Shown: positions 32,355 to 39,437 of the stretch, one piece after another
How the letters are laid out: each line of letters begins with the position of its first letter
Numbering within the stretch: the stretch's first letter is position 1
Assembly: GCA_902595515.1 (NCBI GenBank)
Contig: CACJQK010000004.1
Location: 1-64,000, forward strand
Direction: 5' to 3'
Source of the DNA: an uncultured SAR116 cluster alpha proteobacterium
Lineage (GTDB): Bacteria; Pseudomonadota; Alphaproteobacteria; Puniceispirillales; Marisalimonadaceae
Length of the DNA: 64,000 bases
The notes under the pieces: generated by a model
Seen by the model: the letters and a program-made list of their open reading frames with translations, nothing else
The model's database searches: none
Told to the model about the DNA's origin: nothing
Program-made: the position numbers and the translations under genes

Positions 32355-33080
32355 TTGATAAAAAATGTCATAAAACAATTAGTGCCGAAAGGATACCTAA
32401 GAGCCGCTATAAATTTAAGTAACTTTTTATTAGTTACTGGTAATGAAAGTAATGGTGATCCGCAAGGAGTTTCTCCAGACATGGCAAGAGCGCTTGCCAA
32501 AGAATTTAATGTAGATATTGAATTTATTACTTTTAATAGACCTGGGGAACTTGCAGATGCAATTTCACAGGATGCTTGGGATATTGGAAATATTGCAAAT
32601 GAACCAGCAAGAGCCAAATCAATCACATTTAGTCTGCCATACACTACTATTGAATCAACTTTCTTAATTAGGAATGGACTTAATATTAATACATTAAAGG
32701 ATGTGGATAAAATAGGAATTAAAATTGCCGTTGCCGAAAGAAGTGCATATGATCTTTGGTTAACTGAGAATATAAAAAATGCAGATTTAATAAGAGCAAA
32801 ATCTATAGATGAATCTTTTGCAATTTTTCAAGAAAATAAATACGAAGTATTGGCTGGATTAAGACCTCAATTAGTTGATGATATAAAAAAAACTACTGAC
32901 TGCTTTATATTAAATGAGCCATTTACTAATATAAATCAGTGTATTGGAATGAAACCTGGAAATTTAGAAGCTGAAAATTTTATAAATAATTTTGTAAAAA
33001 AAAATATAGAAAATGGTTTTGTTAAAAACCTCTTATCTAAGTATAATGTCTTAGGCAAATTATCACTCCCTAAAAACTAG
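32355..33080 (+). CDS. Solute-binding-protein family 3-like protein, no visible signal peptide
   Basis: 241 residues with the fold pattern of family 3 periplasmic amino-acid-binding proteins: GYLRAAINLSNFLLVTGNES, QGVSPDMARALAKEFNVDIE, WDIGNIANEPARAKSITFSL and a second lobe starting IKIAVAERSAYDLWL. The start is TTG at 32355 and the N-terminus (MIKNVIKQLVPKGYLR) is not a signal peptide, so as called the protein would be cytoplasmic. It may be a soluble sensor or enzyme of the cyclohexadienyl-dehydratase-like group rather than a transporter component. No permease or ATPase genes adjoin it. It is divergent from amtB-glnK, which could suggest nitrogen control, but this is inference. Confidence 0.7.
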   Translation: MIKNVIKQLVPKGYLRAAINLSNFLLVTGNESNGDPQGVSPDMARALAKEFNVDIEFITFNRPGELADAISQDAWDIGNIANEPARAKSITFSLPYTTIESTFLIRNGLNINTLKDVDKIGIKIAVAERSAYDLWLTENIKNADLIRAKSIDESFAIFQENKYEVLAGLRPQLVDDIKKTTDCFILNEPFTNINQCIGMKPGNLEAENFINNFVKKNIENGFVKNLLSKYNVLGKLSLPKN

Positions 33081-33102
33081 AAGATTTATTATTGTACGAT
33101 TA

Positions 33103-33987
33103 ATGAAAAAAATAGTTCCAATGATAGCTATAATTTGTACTGTTTTTTTCTGGGGATCTTCATTTCCAGCAATGTCGTTTCTTTTAGAAACATCAAGTCC
33201 TTTCATCTTGGCAGCAGGAAGATTTTCTTTAGCAGCTTTTCTAGCTATAATTTGGTGTATATATAATTATAAACAAAAGGTAAAATTAAATCATTTATTA
33301 CGCTATATTTTTGCAGGGTTTATTGGAATTTTTTTATATAATTTATTTCTTAACCATGGACAACAAATTGTTTCAGCAGGGGCAAGCAGCTTCATTGTCA
33401 ATTGCAATCCATTATTTACTGCTTTAATTGGCTTTTTTATCTTGAAACAAAAGGTTTCATATATACATTGGCTAGGAATAATTATGTGTATGTTTGGTGT
33501 TTGTTTAATATCTTTTGATCAAGAGGGTGGCTTAAATTTAGGAAGTGGATCAAGCTTGATATTATTTGCTGCTATCTTGACTGCAACCTATTTTCATATA
33601 GTAAAACCTTTAGTAGTGATATATGGTGCAGTAACTTCTAATGCGTATATAATAATTTTTGGAACCATACCCATGTTATTTTGGTTCCCAGAAACTTATA
33701 ATTTTATTTCTCAATCTTCTAATGAAGTTAAATTAACGTATTTTTGGTTGGCCTTATTTCCAACTGCATTAGGTTACTTAACTTGGACTTATTCAATTGG
33801 TTATTATGGAGCTAATAAAGCTTCTTTGTTTCTTTATTTAATTCCACCAATTTCAATTATTTTGAATTTTTTATGGTATGGAAAAAATCCTTCTTTAGTT
33901 ACCATAATTGGAGGTTTTATTATATTATTAAGTGTTTTTTTTACTCTTTTTTTTCAACAAAATAAAAACAAAATACAAAAATTTTGA
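33103..33987 (+). CDS. EamA/DMT-family permease
   Basis: 294 residues with ten transmembrane helices in two EamA repeats. Typical features are FFWGSSFPAMSFLLETSSP in the first helix, GASSFIVNCNPLFTALIGF at the repeat junction and LFPTALGYLTWTYSIGYYG in the second repeat, with LFLYLIPPISIILNFLWYG near the end. Drug/metabolite transporters of this type move amino acids, nucleotides or other small compounds; the substrate cannot be read from sequence. It follows the binding-protein-like gene by 22 bases and may share its transcript. Its TGA stop abuts the left edge of the tRNA-Gly island. Confidence 0.88.
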   Translation: MKKIVPMIAIICTVFFWGSSFPAMSFLLETSSPFILAAGRFSLAAFLAIIWCIYNYKQKVKLNHLLRYIFAGFIGIFLYNLFLNHGQQIVSAGASSFIVNCNPLFTALIGFFILKQKVSYIHWLGIIMCMFGVCLISFDQEGGLNLGSGSSLILFAAILTATYFHIVKPLVVIYGAVTSNAYIIIFGTIPMLFWFPETYNFISQSSNEVKLTYFWLALFPTALGYLTWTYSIGYYGANKASLFLYLIPPISIILNFLWYGKNPSLVTIIGGFIILLSVFFTLFFQQNKNKIQKF

Positions 33988-33988
33988 T

Positions 33989-34006
33989 TGGAGCAGGTAG
34001 CAAGAA
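33989..34006 (+). repeat. Degenerate copy of tRNA-Gly 3' end (left attachment-site remnant)
   Basis: TGGAGCAGGTAGCAAGAA here corresponds to TGGAGCGGGTAGCGAGAA at 39364-39381, the complement of the tRNA-Gly 3' end including CCA. The two differences are both G to A. Similarity fades after this point. It sits directly after the eamA stop codon and marks the left island boundary. Confidence 0.6.
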
Positions 34007-34094: not shown

Positions 34095-34120
34095 AAATGG
34101 TCTACCGTTTGGTCTACCCT
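34095..34120 (+). repeat. Left copy of 26 bp end repeat (paired TGGTCTACC motif)
   Basis: This 26-base sequence recurs at 39275-39300 in the same orientation with one mismatch. Each copy contains two TGGTCTACC units in tandem, separated by two bases. Repeats like this near the ends of tRNA-integrated elements are usually arm-type binding sites for the integrase or its accessory protein. That role is inferred. Confidence 0.7.
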
Positions 34121-34342
34121 AAATGTTACACACAAAATTAGCGTTCTTAGTATAGAGAACGTGAACATGAATATGTATCACTTAACTGTAACACTATAAG
34201 TGTTATCCTACCCCACACGTGTGCCACCCCGCCCTTGTAGGTATAGTATTCATAAGCTCTGCAGCAGATAGGGTATTTACAATAACTAGACAGTGAAATA
34301 TTCTACTATTAATCACTTTAACTTTTTAAATAGGACACTTTT
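34121..34342. other. Dyad-rich non-coding island end
   Basis: No gene is supported here. Three inverted repeats lie close together: CGTTCT/AGAACG (34142-34147 with 34156-34161), AACACT-ATA-AGTGTT (34190-34204) and the perfect palindrome CACACGTGTG (34214-34223). The stretch 34205-34240 is notably GC-richer than its surroundings. A partial copy of the intergenic repeat found elsewhere in the island (TCTGCAGCAGATAGG, about 34258-34272) follows. These may be protein-binding sites for integration/excision or remnants of an RNA gene. Confidence 0.4.
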
Positions 34343-34687
34343 ATGACTTCTTCAAAACTAGTAAATTATACCACAAGAGAATTTATGTCAGACCATGAAC
34401 TTGAACATTACATAGTTAAACAAAACGAAATATTTACACCAAAAGTTGTTGAAGAATTTACGAAAGCTGGAATGTTAAGAAGAGTTTTGACAAAACTTTG
34501 GAATAAAGAAGGTGTTCATAGAGTTGGTATATTATTTGAGTATAGAGATGAAAAAGCATATGTTGCATGCCAAAGTCTATTAGAAAAGCATTATATCCCA
34601 ATGGTAAAAACATTTATTACTAAAGTAATAGGAAGCCGGGGTATAGTAGTCCATGAATTTAGCTCTGAAGAATTCACAAAGGGATAA
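34343..34687 (+). CDS. Small protein A of a paralogous pair, dimeric alpha/beta-barrel-like
   Basis: 114 residues, no signal peptide. It shares a strongly conserved core with the opposite-strand gene at 34841-35194: KLWNKEGVHRVGILFEYRDE here against VWNKEGGFALSTLFEYKDEN there, then AYVxxQxxxEKH in both. Size and pattern (strand, long helix, LFEYxD strand, helix AYVACQSLLEKHYIP, closing strand) fit the ferredoxin-like fold of dimeric alpha/beta-barrel proteins such as antibiotic-biosynthesis monooxygenases. I do not recognise a named family. AGGACA precedes the ATG. It is the first cargo gene of the tRNA-Gly island. Confidence 0.65.
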   Translation: MTSSKLVNYTTREFMSDHELEHYIVKQNEIFTPKVVEEFTKAGMLRRVLTKLWNKEGVHRVGILFEYRDEKAYVACQSLLEKHYIPMVKTFITKVIGSRGIVVHEFSSEEFTKG

Positions 34688-34762
34688 AATAAATAAAGTG
34701 TTAACCATTTTAATGACAAATACTGAGTCATTACTGTTATAAAAGTAAAATTGTACATCCAA

Positions 34763-34835
34763 TGTGGATACAGTGGCTGTATGTGTCAGCGATGGATATG
34801 TCTAGATATGTATAGTTAGGGTCTGCAGCGGATGG
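34763..34835 (+). repeat. Island intergenic repeat, copy 1
   Basis: Starts TGTGGATACAGTGGCTGTAT and ends with TATGTATAGTTAGGGTCTGC plus AGCGGATG. Both blocks recur in copy 2 (36227-36313) and, more diverged, in copy 3 (38560-38610); the end block also recurs at 34258-34272. It lies between two converging paralogous genes. Confidence 0.6.
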
Positions 34836-34840
34836 AGGAG

Positions 34841-35194
34841 TTAATAATTATAATCTAATAAATTAAGTGTTCTTGTAGTTAATCTTTTCACAGTGATTTT
34901 CTTAAAGAAATTTTCATTCTCTTTAAAATGTTTTTCTATAACTTTTTGTCCCTTAACATAGGCATTTTCGTCTTTATATTCAAATAACGTTGATAATGCA
35001 AAACCACCTTCTTTGTTCCATACCTGATTCAATCTAAAGCGCATCAATCCAATTTTTTTCATACTTTCATAAAAGTTTGAACCTGTTTTTTCTACATAAT
35101 TTATAAATAATTCCATTTCTGCTTCACTAGAAAAATCTATTAAAACATGACTAATTAGTTTTGCTGATGGTATTGAATTTTTTTGTTCATTCAT
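34841..35194 (-). CDS. Small protein B of the paralogous pair, dimeric alpha/beta-barrel-like
   Basis: 117 residues, paralogue of the gene at 34343-34687 (shared WNKEG, LFEYxDExAYV, QxxxEKH; similar length and ends). The N-terminal 13 residues are extra. HVLIDFSSEAEMELFINYVE is the first strand-helix, and KKITVKRLTTRTLNLL the closing strand. No catalytic residue can be assigned. The two paralogues converge with a repeat between them, as might arise from an inverted duplication followed by divergence. Function unknown; a role with small hydrophobic or aromatic ligands is typical of the fold but not shown. Confidence 0.65.
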   Translation of the reverse strand: MNEQKNSIPSAKLISHVLIDFSSEAEMELFINYVEKTGSNFYESMKKIGLMRFRLNQVWNKEGGFALSTLFEYKDENAYVKGQKVIEKHFKENENFFKKITVKRLTTRTLNLLDYNY

Positions 35195-35261
35195 ACATAT
35201 AACCTATCGGCTAATTTAAAACATTAAACAATAAAATTATAACTTTACAGTTACTATATTA

Positions 35262-35552
35262 TTATATTCCTTCAACCATAAGTATGTTTGAAGTAGAATT
35301 TTCTAATCTTATTTTCTTATAAGGTCTGTATTCTTCACTATCATACCATTTCATAGCTGATTTTTTGTCAGGAAATTTTACTAATACCATTCTAGTAGGT
35401 TTCCATAAATTTGTTTCTAAAGAATCTATCTCTCCACCCCGAATTAAGTATTCACCTCCATAGCTTTCAATCATAGGTTTAACTTTATCCATATATTTTT
35501 TGTATTCTTCTATGTTGTGTATATCCACGTCACCAATCATATAAACTGACAT
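35262..35552 (-). CDS. DUF1330 family protein
   Basis: 96 residues from ATG at 35552, preferred over the ATG at 35564 because GGAG lies six bases upstream of it. The sequence is a clear DUF1330: VYMIGDVDIHNIEEYKKYMD, then IESYGGEYLIRGGEIDSLE, MVLVKFPDKKSAMKWYDSEE and YRPYKKIRLENSTSNILMVE. These are small cytoplasmic dimeric alpha/beta-barrel proteins without established activity. It is the third such small protein in the island and is read in the same direction as the gene at 34841-35194, with a 67-base gap. Confidence 0.88.
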   Translation of the reverse strand: MSVYMIGDVDIHNIEEYKKYMDKVKPMIESYGGEYLIRGGEIDSLETNLWKPTRMVLVKFPDKKSAMKWYDSEEYRPYKKIRLENSTSNILMVEGI

Positions 35553-35779
35553 AATCGTCTCCATGTTTTGTTTTCTATATTTATCTCGCTAATCAAATAC
35601 CTACAAAGTAAATATATAAACTACCAAACAATAAAATATCAATTATGACAATTTTCATAAAGCTATTCATGCTAATAGTTTAATCCAAAGAAACACTCCT
35701 CGTAAAGTATTAACCAAAGATAAATATTACTTTTAGTCCAAGCATTAATAATAGTTTATTATCTACATTAAAAAAATAA

Positions 35780-36115
35780 TTACTTGATAAGAGTACATTG
35801 ATAATAGGCCAACTTTTTATTTTTTGACTTTGAATCGTAAGTATTGACAGACATCCTACCAGTTGGTTTATGAAATATAATTGACCTGAATAAGGTATCA
35901 TTATTTTGATATGAAACTGTATCCCAATAAATGAAATCAATTTGAACAGAATATTTCTTTTGTTCACCCATTCCAATCATAACAGTTTTATTATTATGAT
36001 TAAATAAAACATAAAGTTTACTTTTATTTTCATTACAAGAATAGATTTTATTGTCGGTATCAGCGAGCAAGACATTTGGGAAAAATAAAAAAATTATAAT
36101 AAGTATTTTTAACAT
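35780..36115 (-). CDS. Small exported protein of unknown function
   Basis: 111 residues with a signal peptide (MLKILIIIFLFFPNVLLA, cleavage near residue 18). The mature part has two cysteines, NKIYSCNENKSKLY and AYYQCTLIK, at its ends, and a beta-rich middle (VMIGMGEQKKYSVQIDFIYW). It resembles other short secreted proteins in the first 4 kb of the window in style but not clearly in sequence. It is the only exported cargo protein of the island. I do not recognise the family. Confidence 0.6.
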   Translation of the reverse strand: MLKILIIIFLFFPNVLLADTDNKIYSCNENKSKLYVLFNHNNKTVMIGMGEQKKYSVQIDFIYWDTVSYQNNDTLFRSIIFHKPTGRMSVNTYDSKSKNKKLAYYQCTLIK

Positions 36116-36434
36116 CTTTTTATCATAATCTAGCTAAAGACCCCTAATAAATTTTTAAACAATTTAATAATTTATACTGTGTTATTTAAAAGGGTTTATG
36201 TAATCAAAGTCAAATAATGTATGAAGTGTGGTTACAGTTGCTGTGTGTGTATTTATGTGTAAAGGTTAGTAGAGCTATGGATAAATATGTATAGTTAAGG
36301 TCTGTAGCAGATGCATTTAATATTATTTTAAAATGCTTAAAAATTACTCAGAATATAAATTTATTCCAGCAAAAAACAAATTTAACTTGTTAATAATGTG
36401 TAACAAATAAGAATTAATATTAAGTTTAAATTTT
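36116..36434. other. Intergenic stretch with island repeat and upstream region of duplicated-domain gene
   Basis: These 319 bases hold no gene. Copy 2 of the island repeat occupies 36227-36313. The remaining bases up to 36434 are AT-rich and should contain the promoter for the gene at 36447; no clear -35/-10 pair stands out. Confidence 0.5.
36227..36313 (+). repeat. Island intergenic repeat, copy 2
   Basis: Starts TGTGGTTACAGTTGCTGTGT and ends with TATGTATAGTTAAGGTCTGT plus AGCAGATG, matching copy 1 at most positions in both blocks, with a longer and more diverged middle. Same orientation as copies 1 and 3. Confidence 0.6.
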
Positions 36435-36446
36435 GTGAGGTCAAAA

Positions 36447-37067
36447 ATGAGCGATACAAACTACGTTATTTTAACAGTTGCATCTGTTAATTTTAGTTAT
36501 AGGGAAACCATGACTAAACTTATGTCTCAACATTCAAAAGATTTAATTGCAAACGCGGGAGCTAAAGGAACTCGTTTTGGTTCTATAGGAACCGGGGAAC
36601 ATGCTGGAAGCCTAATCTTTATCCAATTTTATGATGAGTTAAAAGACTATGAAAAAGCTATGGACTTTCAAGCTGAGTCCCCTGTATTTAAAGAAATTAT
36701 GGATAGTGGAAAAGTTAATATCTATTTAAGAAATATAGCAACTTCACTGCCAACAAAATTTGATAACAGTGGCGAGCATCCTAAATATATTGTTATATCA
36801 AGAGCAGAAGCTTCAATGTCTGATAAGACTAAATTTCTAGATTGTATTAATGATACTGTTTCCTGTTTTAAAGATAATGGCGCAGTAACATTGAGGTTTG
36901 GTAATTTATTAACTGGCTCCAATGCGGGTAATTTCCTACTTGGAGTAGGTTACCCATCAATGGAGGCCATAGAAAAAACTTATGATGAGTTATTGGTCCA
37001 TAGTTCTTATAAAGAACTCATGACTTTTGCAAAGATGAATATGAGAAATATTATTAAAATTCTCTAA
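36447..37067 (+). CDS. Tandem dimeric alpha/beta-barrel protein, unknown function
   Basis: 206 residues from the ATG at 36447, which has GAGG upstream; the frame extends four codons further. The protein is an internal duplication. Half one has [20 protein letters not shown] and half two [20 protein letters not shown]; each begins with a strand ([26 protein letters not shown]) and ends in a helix and strand ([19 protein letters not shown]). This is the single-chain version of a dimeric ferredoxin-like barrel. No catalytic residues can be named. It precedes the AEC transporter by 82 bases on the same strand, suggesting a shared pathway. Confidence 0.75.
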
Positions 37068-37149
37068 CATTAATAGATTGGTTGCAATAAGTTGAATTTA
37101 ACATTTTGATATTTCCATCTACATATGCTGCTTTTTTGGATTATTATAA

Positions 37150-38061
37150 ATGTTTTTAAATTTATTTTTCTCAACCCTACCTCTTTTTGCTCTAGTTTTT
37201 ATTGGGTACTCTTTAGGGAAATTTTCACTATTTAATAACACTGAGGCAAAAGTATTTTCTAAACTTGTTGCGATAGTTGTGGTACCTGCTTTTGGAATTA
37301 AAATAATTGGAAACTTCAATTATGAGTTCATAAATTGGAAATTATATTTTTCCTACCTTTTAGCGCAAGGGATAATCTATTTTATTGGATTTATTATAGC
37401 AAAAAAAGTGTTTAATAGAGAAAATCCAGAATGCATCATAATTGGAATGACTGCATCTTTTGGAAACCATCTCTTTTTTTTATATCCTATTTTATTGGTT
37501 GAATTTACAACTAAAGATATTGTACCAATTGAGACAGTTATTGCTGCTGACTTTGTAACAGTTGGACTAAGTGTATGTGCTTTAGATTTTACTACTCAAC
37601 AAAAAATAGATATTAAAAAAGCGATTTTAAAACAGATAAAAAATCCTGCTTTTATAGGATTGGGACTTGGATTAATAATTTATCTTAGTTCTGCAAATCT
37701 TCCAGAGAGTACTAATAGATTAGTAAATTTTATATGTGCCTCAGGTGTTCCATTAACTTTATTGGCGATGGGTATCTTACTATCTTACAAGACAGATACA
37801 ACACAAATACAATTATCCTTTTTAATTACATTTTTAAAATTGTTTGGTTTCTTGATAATATTAACTTTAATTGTTTGGTTATTAGATATCACTTTCACGG
37901 ATGCAAAAACAACTTTAATGCTCTCTGCAACACCCATTGGTGCGATGGGATTAGTATTTGCTTCCATTTATAAAGTAAAAACAGATGCAGTTGTAAGGTC
38001 AGGTATTATGACATATACAACAGCACTGTTTTTAATACCGTTTGTAGGTAGTGTATTTTAA
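37150..38061 (+). CDS. AEC-family (auxin efflux carrier-like) transporter
   Basis: 303 residues with ten hydrophobic segments, the usual AEC length. The first helix is LPLFALVFIGYSLGKF. KVFSKLVAIVVVPAFGIKII, then IIIGMTASFGNHLFFLYPIL and GVPLTLLAMGILLSYKT in the second half are typical; the late helix ATPIGAMGLVFASIYKV also fits. Bacterial AEC proteins export or import organic acids such as malonate or malate. It lies between the tandem-barrel gene and a DUF1330-like gene on the same strand, with no permease partner needed. The substrate is unknown; the neighbours suggest a small organic compound. Confidence 0.85.
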   Translation: MFLNLFFSTLPLFALVFIGYSLGKFSLFNNTEAKVFSKLVAIVVVPAFGIKIIGNFNYEFINWKLYFSYLLAQGIIYFIGFIIAKKVFNRENPECIIIGMTASFGNHLFFLYPILLVEFTTKDIVPIETVIAADFVTVGLSVCALDFTTQQKIDIKKAILKQIKNPAFIGLGLGLIIYLSSANLPESTNRLVNFICASGVPLTLLAMGILLSYKTDTTQIQLSFLITFLKLFGFLIILTLIVWLLDITFTDAKTTLMLSATPIGAMGLVFASIYKVKTDAVVRSGIMTYTTALFLIPFVGSVF

Positions 38062-38109
38062 AAAATTAATAAATGAATATATCTTTTAAATTTTAAAATA
38101 AGAAGGAAT

Positions 38110-38508
38110 ATGATGGATACAATTATACAAAAAGATAGAGACGAAATGGAAATCATAGCTAAATCAAATAATGATTTTCCAGTTCTTATGATTAATCAAA
38201 ATAGATATTTAAAGGGTGAATTTCCAAATGGTGACCTATATTCAAAATGGAGGTCAATTAATAAAAAAATGATAAGTGAGGTTAAAGGAGAAGTTATATG
38301 GTCTCTGAAAGTGTATGCTCCATACTTAATTAACGGAAATTTAGAACCATTAGATGAAATATTAGCTTTTTGGTATCCGTCTCATAAAGCTTTTTTATCA
38401 ATGATTAATAGCCCTCATAGAAAAGATAATTTTGAATTAAGAAAAAAGTTAATAGTCTATGCTGTAATTCATAGATGTGATGGAAGAAACGCTCCACAAA
38501 TCAAGTAG
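38110..38508 (+). CDS. DUF1330-like small protein
   Basis: 132 residues. VLMINQNRYLKGEFPNGDLY begins the fold. PLDEILAFWYPSHKAFLSMI followed by NSPHRKDNFELRKKLI matches the DUF1330/NIPSNAP-like pattern (strand ending in a YPS turn, helix, then SPxxxxxxxLR). The closing strand is VYAVIHRCDG. It belongs by pattern to the dimeric alpha/beta-barrel superfamily, as do other cargo proteins of this island. AAGGAA lies close upstream of ATG. It follows the AEC gene by 48 bases, probably in one transcript. Activity unknown. Confidence 0.7.
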   Translation: MMDTIIQKDRDEMEIIAKSNNDFPVLMINQNRYLKGEFPNGDLYSKWRSINKKMISEVKGEVIWSLKVYAPYLINGNLEPLDEILAFWYPSHKAFLSMINSPHRKDNFELRKKLIVYAVIHRCDGRNAPQIK

Positions 38509-38559
38509 ACTTCCATAATGAAATACTAATAGTGTAATCAGTGTCGCTGGTACATTAGA

Positions 38560-38610
38560 TGTGGTTATAGTGTCTGTATGACTATGTATGAGTAAGGTAT
38601 AGATAGTTAC
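38560..38610 (+). repeat. Island intergenic repeat, copy 3 (partial)
   Basis: Starts TGTGGTTATAGTGTCTGTAT, like copies 1 and 2, and retains a GGTATAGATAGTTA segment. The final GGTCTG(C/T)AGC block is absent. It abuts the truncated 3' end of the integrase pseudogene at 38613. Confidence 0.5.
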
Positions 38611-38612
38611 TT

Positions 38613-39272
38613 TTATTTAAAAACAGCAGACACATCTCCAAACAAAGATGATGTAACTTCTATTAACTTTTTATCATTTATTGGAATTGGCTTTCTAATC
38701 TCTACATTATTGCTCTCTGGCATATAGGTTTTACTAAAAGCGTTTATACAACCAATACCTTCTTCAGTTATTGATAAGTTGATGATTGAACGGATAGACG
38801 AAAATATTCTTTTAACAGATGATATCAATAAGCCTCTATCTAACAAAAAGTCACGTAACTTGGCTGCATCTTTACTGCTATATTCATCAATAGGTAAATT
38901 ACCTAAAAGTTCTATTACATATTTGATGTTTCTATTAGCAGCACGGACAAATATTTTATCTTTACCTTCACCTTTAAGTTTCAGATAAGTGGTGAGAGCT
39001 TCAGATAATAAAGGAGCATTTGAATTGCTATTTATAGGTGGTTTGCTCACAAGCATATGTTGAAGCAGGAACTTGCATCTTGGTTAACCTGATAGATGTC
39101 CAATAATCATCAAGCTTTTGATAGAGTGATTTACTTGAACGAATAGCTGATACATTTGATTTAGTTCTAAGTCATATAACTATTCGGTCACTCTTATAAT
39201 ATGACCTCACATCACACGGAACACGCTTGCTGAAATAATACACACCACACTTTTTATATAAGTAGGAAACAT
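38613..39272 (-). pseudogene. Truncated, frameshifted tyrosine integrase
   Basis: The minus strand starts near ATG 39272 (MFPTYIKS). After a frameshift it reads YFSKRVPCDVRSYYKSDRIV, an integrase N-terminal arm domain, with an in-frame TGA at 39172-39174, then LRTKSNVSAIRSSKSLYQKL and DDYWTSIRLTK. A second frameshift leads to the open stretch 38613-39056, which holds the core-binding domain (LSEALTTYLKLKGEGKDK, LLGNLPIDEYSSKDAAKLR, FSSIRSIINLSITEEG). The frame ends after KPIPINDKKLIEVTSSLFGD, so the Arg/His/Arg/Tyr catalytic domain is missing. Its position beside the tRNA-Gly 3' end is canonical for the integrase of a tRNA-targeting element. Confidence 0.85.
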
Positions 39273-39274
39273 TT

Positions 39275-39300
39275 AAATGGTCTACCATTTGGTCTACCCT
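39275..39300 (+). repeat. Right copy of 26 bp end repeat
   Basis: Matches 34095-34120 in the same orientation at 25 of 26 positions. It lies just upstream of the integrase start and 63 bases from the tRNA-Gly 3' end, where arm-type integrase sites are expected. Confidence 0.7.
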
Positions 39301-39363
39301 CCAAGCACACATTACAAAATATGCTTACATATCAACTACTTAGGGCGATTGATTTACATGAGA

Positions 39364-39437
39364 TGGAGCGGGTAGCGAGAATCGAACTCGCGTCATTAGC
39401 TTGGAAGGCTAAGGTCTTACCACTACACAATACCCGC
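39364..39437 (-). tRNA. tRNA-Gly (anticodon TCC)
   Basis: 74 bases with encoded CCA, read on the minus strand. The acceptor stem GCGGGTA pairs with TACCCGC. The anticodon arm is TTAGC-CTTCCAA-GCTAA, giving TCC, and the T arm contains GTTCGATTC. Its 3' end faces the island at 33988-39363 and served as its integration target; the tRNA remains intact. Confidence 0.97.

Follow-up and report, generated by a model that had tools for sequence, protein, structure and literature searches.

The 3' end of a tRNA-Gly gene in a SAR116-clade alphaproteobacterium is the insertion point of a 5.4-kb island, which lies within the 64,000-nucleotide stretch of DNA that was analysed (the window). We favour, at a probability of roughly 0.55, the reading that this is a modular tRNA-Gly island with a broken recombinase and a cargo dominated by barrel proteins for which small-molecule handling is inferred. 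Considered together with its counterparts in related genomes, the cargo is probably a mobile kit for small organic molecules that has been reshuffled among relatives (Table 1).

In 13 related genomes nothing is inserted at this site and the EamA gene directly adjoins tRNA-Gly; these empty sites were used to set the left end of the island together with locus L257, a relative in which TGGAGCGGGTAGCGAGAA is present at both island ends (that is, the att core is duplicated). The island thus combines att duplication at a tRNA 3' end with empty sites in relatives, and both observations bear out the first-pass annotation, which had called an island here. The genes for SBP3 and EamA (32355–33987) were considered as cargo and ruled out, given that both flank the empty site in relatives. 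All seven cargo open reading frames (ORFs) are present, lying on both strands. The recombinase is a chimeric pseudogene with a stop at the join of its two pieces; its catalytic half is absent, and the final ~25 residues of a hydratase-like gene are joined to the remnant. The intact tyrosine recombinase expected of such an island is found only in relatives (for example, L098:5356–6525, which consists of DUF6538 and Phage_integrase domains), and the recombinase start lies 36–53 bp from the tRNA.

Table 1 Features of the tRNA-Gly island, in window coordinates.
Feature	Position	Strand	Basis
Left island end	33989–34006		Degenerate tRNA-Gly 3'-end copy TGGAGCAGGTAGCAAGAA, 2 mismatches to the right copy
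Left-end island segment	33989–34300	+	blastn matches to island segments of L098, L104, L110, L111 and L093
Divergent copy of the repeat's right half	34181–34300		Inside the left-end island segment
D6974a, DUF6974 dimeric barrel protein	34343–34687	+	Pfam PF22388, 147.8 bits (cut-off 26)
Repeat copy 1 (left and right parts)	34691–34840	+	nhmmer; model R1 match 34693–34837, E 9e-26
D6974b, divergent DUF6974 paralogue	34841–35194	-	Pfam PF22388, 40.5 bits (cut-off 26)
DUF1330 protein	35262–35564	-	Pfam PF07045, 97.3 bits (cut-off 23)
Small protein with N-terminal hydrophobic signal-like segment	35780–36115	-	Sequence
Repeat copy 2	36145–36319	+	nhmmer; model R1 E 7e-25
Tandem DUF6854 barrel protein	36447–37067	+	Pfam PF21614, two stretches; frame open from 36435
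AEC-family carrier	37150–38061	+	Pfam Mem_trans PF03547, 78.7 bits (cut-off 25.7)
C38, DUF1330-like barrel protein	38110–38508	+	AlphaFold model and Foldseek
Repeat copy 3 (mostly left part)	38511–38631	+	nhmmer; model R1 E 1e-19
Chimeric recombinase pseudogene	38613–39312	-	Recombinase residues 1–84 and 83–220, in two pieces
Right island end	39364–39381		18-bp att core within the tRNA-Gly 3' end
tRNA-Gly(tcc), target site	39364–39437	-	ARAGORN and Rfam; empty or occupied among relatives

Five of the cargo proteins had been assigned to the dimeric alpha/beta-barrel (ferredoxin-like) fold by pattern, and our comparisons indicate that this fold, with its beta-alpha-beta-beta-alpha-beta arrangement, is common to all five: four through homology to solved structures and one through a model, with unrelated folds not found among them. 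The suspected paralogue pair are both DUF6974 proteins, a family that matches the PDB entries 2op5 (E 6e-17; titled 'dimeric ferredoxin-like protein ... from uncultured marine organism') and 2od6 (E 2e-8). The protein recognized as a clear DUF1330 is one by Pfam and matches 2fiu and 3lo3; the previously given end at 35552 is an internal ATG and the ORF runs to 35564. The presumed tandem two-domain protein indeed carries two copies of DUF6854 and aligns with 2pgc from end to end (E 4e-113, ~83% identity as counted from the alignment). In this superfamily a dimer or a tandem pseudo-dimer would form the barrel; DUF6854 has two domains in tandem, and 2op5 is dimeric according to its PDB title. For C38 (present in 16 of 101 genomes), the predicted barrel fold comes from an AlphaFold model of moderate confidence (pLDDT 69) and from Foldseek, which ranked 3dca, 3hhl and 3lo3 highest, followed by 4-methylmuconolactone methylisomerase and 2fiu. 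The guess of a DUF1330-like protein is consistent with these matches, and we retain the name in the sense of fold similarity only, because the Pfam search gave no match (that is, the cut-off of DUF1330, PF07045, was not reached). The remaining two cargo genes encode a genuine AEC-type carrier, as proposed, which exceeds the Mem_trans cut-off and scores below that of NCBIfam TIGR00946, and a small, apparently secreted protein that matched nothing in Pfam or PDB searches and whose family has 5 members within island intervals.

A ~165-bp repeat, always in one orientation, divides this cargo into three blocks: DUF6974; DUF6974-DUF1330-secreted protein; and DUF6854-AEC-DUF1330-like protein. Model R1 of the repeat finds three matches in the window's own genome, all inside this island, and the repeat occurs in 43 of 57 family genomes, often with several copies per island; it matched no Rfam family. 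One interpretation, which we consider rather doubtful, is that the repeats are true site-specific sites of an integron-like cassette exchange, run by this recombinase family or another. Directionality speaks for it, given that neighbouring repeat pairs are co-oriented in 69 of 81 cases, that the orientation of gene families relative to the repeat is nearly fixed (105 of 123, against a shuffle mean of 81 and maximum of 93) and that recombinase and repeat are co-oriented in all 8 distinct loci with a repeat ≤1.2 kb from the recombinase 3' end. Homology breakpoints are also moderately concentrated there, with 41% of intergenic ends ≤30 bp from repeats versus 30% expected, and one-sided matches outnumber two-sided ones by 163 to 19 at repeats and by 141 to 42 at other gaps; this expected share and these control gaps weaken the stronger claim of homology ending precisely at repeats. 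However, the tRNA end that the recombinase itself targets is dissimilar to the repeat, break positions spread across the whole repeat and scatter over ~200 bp without one crossover point, and RNAalifold returned only two 5-bp hairpins (-2.2 kcal/mol), a very weak conserved fold rather than a strong secondary structure. More broadly, we tentatively entertain as a possibility an undescribed SAR116 cassette-exchange system in which repeat-bounded single genes or small operons are swapped in tRNA islands that store the barrel-fold small-molecule enzymes of the clade.

Whether the cargo forms one pathway or sensing system for a single compound, as the first-pass annotation suggested, can be judged from its neighbourhoods in relatives. 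DUF1330, DUF6974 and DUF6854 lie close together and in one direction in three genomes of a sister genus (L084, L086 and L102), followed in two of these (L086 and L102) by the AEC carrier, and an AEC carrier of one of two divergent types stands immediately or closely after DUF6854 in 11 of 31 genes examined; the homologues therefore do occur near one another and near AEC carriers. A second set, DUF6854-tautomerase-NTF2-DUF6974-YdhR, recurs in about eight genomes. This part of the suggestion stands, and the genes at 36447–38508 (DUF6854-AEC-C38), extended by the sister-genus comparison to DUF1330 and DUF6974, probably form a functional unit. By contrast, acquisition of the whole cargo as one system seems unlikely, given that the window holds three repeat-separated blocks on both strands rather than one operon and that subsets occur in other combinations (for example, L110 and L111 carry D6974b-DUF1330 but no DUF6854, and L098 and L093 carry DUF6854-AEC-C38 but no DUF1330). 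Because the blocks are separated by repeats and other islands hold other sets (that is, different barrel families accompanied by cupins, tautomerases, NTF2-like proteins or transporters of other kinds), we suggest that the gathering largely reflects island assembly.

Neutral accretion, in which islands collect genes short enough to survive insertion and barrel proteins are there simply because they are a common kind of short gene, would fit both the strong reshuffling of the islands and the median length of 117 amino acids for ORFs between repeats, yet we judge it improbable. Some loci in our comparisons were picked because they carry DUF6974 or DUF6854, and genomes that are related do not count as independent samples. 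Of 100 sampled ORFs in repeat-bounded intervals, 28 match DUF6974, DUF1330 or DUF6854, none of which appears among the 25 families listed for a random set of 100 small ORFs from the same organism's chromosome. At loci fetched solely for holding the repeat, the barrel fold was found in 29 of 83 ORFs between repeats (~35%), whereas a single barrel gene was detected in 400 kb of chromosome with 372 ORFs (~0.3%), a fresh background sample from which loci chosen for holding barrel genes were left out. The commonest family lacking a Pfam match also yields a barrel model (pLDDT 89.5; nearest 2od4, 2op5, HapK and SnoaB). Families f3_130 and f9_101 were left out of the barrel count because profile comparison with this modelled family gave no support, and f13_94 (81% probability in that comparison) was counted apart. 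The near absence of barrel families from size-limited chromosomal ORFs already weakens neutral accretion, as do the recurrence of the same families in conserved runs and the dN/dS values (D6974a, 0.06–0.13; DUF1330, 0.10–0.13; DUF6854, 0.06–0.07; 0.06–0.21 overall when AEC and C38 are included; secreted protein, 0.33), which indicate that purifying selection maintains these six genes. A phage satellite or a defence island with small anti-phage proteins is highly improbable: the element is small and tRNA-targeted and its recombinase is related to phage integrases, but PADLOC returned no match and no capsid or packaging genes were seen. A viral or phage-borne origin was likewise rejected, given that neither D6974a nor the repeat had relatives in viral contigs, where the recombinase had only two weak ones, and that the repeat was not found in the phages and plasmids searched.

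For the favoured reading of a modular island, we propose that a tyrosine recombinase, now broken, inserted the island at tRNA-Gly, and that blocks may have been exchanged through recombination, as their reshuffling suggests. The AEC carrier would transport a lipophilic acid or a small organic anion through the inner membrane, and the barrel proteins would bind that compound in the barrel cavity, where they may either sequester it or convert it by cofactor-free chemistry (oxygenation, isomerisation or ring/lactone rearrangement). Separate islands would provide versions for separate substrates, and the lineage would therefore alter its kit by replacing islands and blocks.

SAR116 is an abundant surface-ocean clade. 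Structures for these barrel families were determined in 2007 from ocean-metagenome proteins that came with no host, context or function. The families are now placed in mobile SAR116 islands, beside AEC carriers and in recurring runs, which provides concrete sets for joint testing, and the repeat offers a sequence handle for following the movement of gene blocks between ocean genomes.

Among known systems, tycheposons, reportedly first described in Prochlorococcus, share with this island a border tRNA, a tyrosine recombinase at one end, metabolic cargo and marine oligotrophic hosts. The features listed for them in Methylophilaceae (tRNA border, tyrosine recombinase and cargo, 4–200 kb; PMC10872708) are all found here; however, this island spans only 5.4 kb, its cargo is dominated by one fold, a ~165-bp directional repeat lies between its blocks and its recombinase is of the DUF6538 plus Phage_integrase type. 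We do not file it as a tycheposon because such features are common to many tRNA islands and the likeness is one of architecture. Integrons similarly place short directional repeats between small genes, mostly of unknown function, whereas this island sits at a tRNA end rather than a known attI, its blocks may comprise up to four genes, and the repeat is not recognizable as attC by RNAalifold or Rfam. The cofactor-free oxygenases and isomerases of ABM type (SnoaB, ActVA-Orf6, HapK, LsrG and 4-methylmuconolactone methylisomerase) resemble the island proteins in fold and size, a likeness of fold rather than of sequence-level family membership. Further counterparts are the marine-metagenome structures 2pgc, 2op5 and 2od6, homologues of the DUF6854 and DUF6974 proteins of the window (and 2od4, related by fold): the PDB titles name neither an organism nor a gene neighbourhood, and such genes are found here in SAR116 islands.

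All seven cargo ORFs that the first-pass annotation had reported for the 5.4-kb island beside tRNA-Gly are present where it placed them, and its five calls of a dimeric alpha/beta-barrel (ferredoxin-like) fold hold, because four are upheld by homology to solved structures and the fifth, C38 (the protein at 38110–38508), by a moderate-confidence model and its Foldseek matches. By sequence, the DUF6974 proteins (D6974a and its divergent paralogue D6974b) are related to 2op5 and 2od6 (the latter reportedly deposited with a fatty-acid-like ligand), the DUF1330 protein to 2fiu and 3lo3, and the DUF6854 protein to 2pgc along its entire length (35 differences in 206 residues, that is, about 83% identity, counted by eye on the alignment). 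Pfam searches gave no match for C38 or for the secreted protein (35780–36115). The C38 model, built from an alignment of relatives (pLDDT 69), has a helix followed by strand-helix-strand-strand-helix-helix-strand, with 3dca, 3hhl and 3lo3 as best matches and 4-methylmuconolactone methylisomerase and 2fiu next. Purifying selection acts on D6974a, DUF1330, DUF6854, AEC and C38 (dN/dS 0.06–0.21); the value for the secreted protein is 0.33.

Repeat copies and Pfam-assigned cargo genes of the island
Feature	Position	Strand	Basis
Divergent right part of repeat	within 34181–34300		
DUF6974 (D6974a)	34343–34687		Pfam
Repeat copy	about 34691–34840	+	
DUF6974 (D6974b)	34841–35194		Pfam
DUF1330	35262–35564		Pfam
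Repeat copy	about 36145–36319	+	
Tandem DUF6854	36447–37067		Pfam
AEC-type Mem_trans family	37150–38061		Pfam
Repeat copy	about 38511–38631	+	

The cargo blocks are separated by a directional repeat, some 165 bp long and made up of a left and a right part, the profile of which matches 45 of 101 related genomes, often several times per contig; 43 of these 45 belong to the same family (57 genomes plus the window's own). The window's genome has only three matches, all inside this island, and a 400-kb chromosome sample gave none. Neighbouring repeats share their orientation in 69 of 81 pairs, and the orientation of gene families to the nearest repeat is nearly fixed (105 of 123; mean 81 and maximum 93 in 2000 shuffles). 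Repeats no more than 1.2 kb behind a recombinase share its orientation in all 8 distinct loci; the sole repeat of locus L086, 3.7 kb from the recombinase, has the opposite one. The repeat has no match in Rfam, no strong conserved fold was found, and it was not found in phage, plasmid and viral-contig collections at the sensitivity used. A weak match about 440 bp after a recombinase at G069:C1:1635708-1637374 (a single-contig genome from another family of the order) hints that the repeat–recombinase pairing is old.

Barrel proteins are enriched between repeats. The 78 intervals hold 174 ORFs (median 117 aa), of which DUF6974 forms the largest family (33 ORFs) and a 109-aa family without Pfam match the second (12 ORFs); as the model of the latter (pLDDT 89.5) resembles 2od4, 2op5, HapK and SnoaB, it is a barrel too. 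Further families comprise C38, cupins, AEC, DUF6854, DUF1330 and unknowns. Among 100 sampled interval ORFs there were 28 matches to DUF6974, DUF1330 or DUF6854; the 25 families listed for a set of 100 small ORFs from the window's own chromosome include none of the three. Where the repeat was the only criterion for selecting a locus, 29 of 83 ORFs fall in families with the fold, against a background of one ABM-like gene among 372 ORFs in the 400-kb sample.

In 13 related genomes tRNA-Gly lies directly behind EamA, and in others an island lies in between. The 18-base 3' end of the tRNA gene (TGGAGCGGGTAGCGAGAA) recurs at both island ends in locus L257 and, in the window, at 39364–39381 (right) and 33989–34006 (left, with two changes); given these ends, SBP3 and EamA lie outside the island and were ruled out as cargo. 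An intact recombinase in a relative consists of DUF6538 and Phage_integrase; such genes start 36–53 bp from the adjoining tRNA, on its strand, wherever one was detected (Gly, Leu, Arg or Asn). This recombinase family is represented at these tRNA genes throughout the order (in 82 of 101 genomes, with as many as 11 matches in a single one). The window's recombinase gene (38613–39312) is broken into pieces matching residues 1–84 and 83–220, then fused to the final 25 residues of a hydratase-like gene, which L104 and other loci carry intact in their islands; the island is probably immobile here unless helped in trans. Near both ends (34095–34120 and 39275–39300) lies a near-identical 26-bp repeat, AAATGGTCTACC(G/A)TTTGGTCTACCCT, itself composed of two half-copies, which looks like a candidate recombinase arm site.

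That repeat-bounded blocks behave as cassettes is partly borne out. The islands are strongly reshuffled overall, and intergenic ends of homology blocks fall within 30 bp of repeats in moderate excess (41% versus 30% expected). Between loci, repeat pairs share one flank only in 163 cases and both in 19, as against 141 and 42 for other gaps, these being pair counts and not independent events. Breakpoints at repeats are scattered across about 200 bp, a spread that suits homologous recombination no less than site-specific crossover.

Some cargo combinations recur. AEC adjoins or closely trails DUF6854 in 11 of 31 genes (usual spacing 51–86 bp), the carriers being of two types only about 24% identical. 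In L084, L086 and L102 (sister genus), DUF1330, DUF6974 and DUF6854 point the same way within about 550 bp; AEC follows 51 bp further on in L086 and L102, and repeats bound the run in L102. Another run, in about eight genomes (L075:5842-9700; also L076, L077, L080, L082, L085, L089 and L099), comprises DUF6854, a tautomerase, an NTF2-like protein, DUF6974 and YdhR, frequently accompanied by an EamA transporter and a divergent ABM-like gene, and looks like a putative small-molecule operon. The own genome (81 contigs, 80% complete; the window is part of C4) has six DUF6974 hits, one DUF6854 gene, one ABM gene, and one intact and one degenerate DUF1330 gene (the latter with several stops; G000:C2:21216-21482, L015). 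A second D6974a, 89% identical, lies outside any detected repeat at L012:12505-13684 (contig C12), adjoining ABM-like and YdhR-like genes.

SnoaB, HapK and 4-methylmuconolactone methylisomerase share the fold and act on small molecules. Because of these roles elsewhere, the barrel proteins may bind a small organic compound, or convert it, and the AEC carrier would move that compound. A system for a single compound, as first proposed for the whole cargo, is possible for DUF6854-AEC-C38 with DUF1330 and DUF6974; for the cargo as a whole, modular assembly is the simpler account. Most loci of the closest DUF6974 relatives come from genomes that were obtained from single cells or metagenomes and bear the label SAR116 cluster, and in the open literature (most subscription papers lay outside the search) we found no paper on such SAR116 islands or the repeat. 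Among known systems are the tycheposons (PMC10872708), elements of 4–200 kb that are bordered by a tRNA and carry a tyrosine recombinase and cargo.
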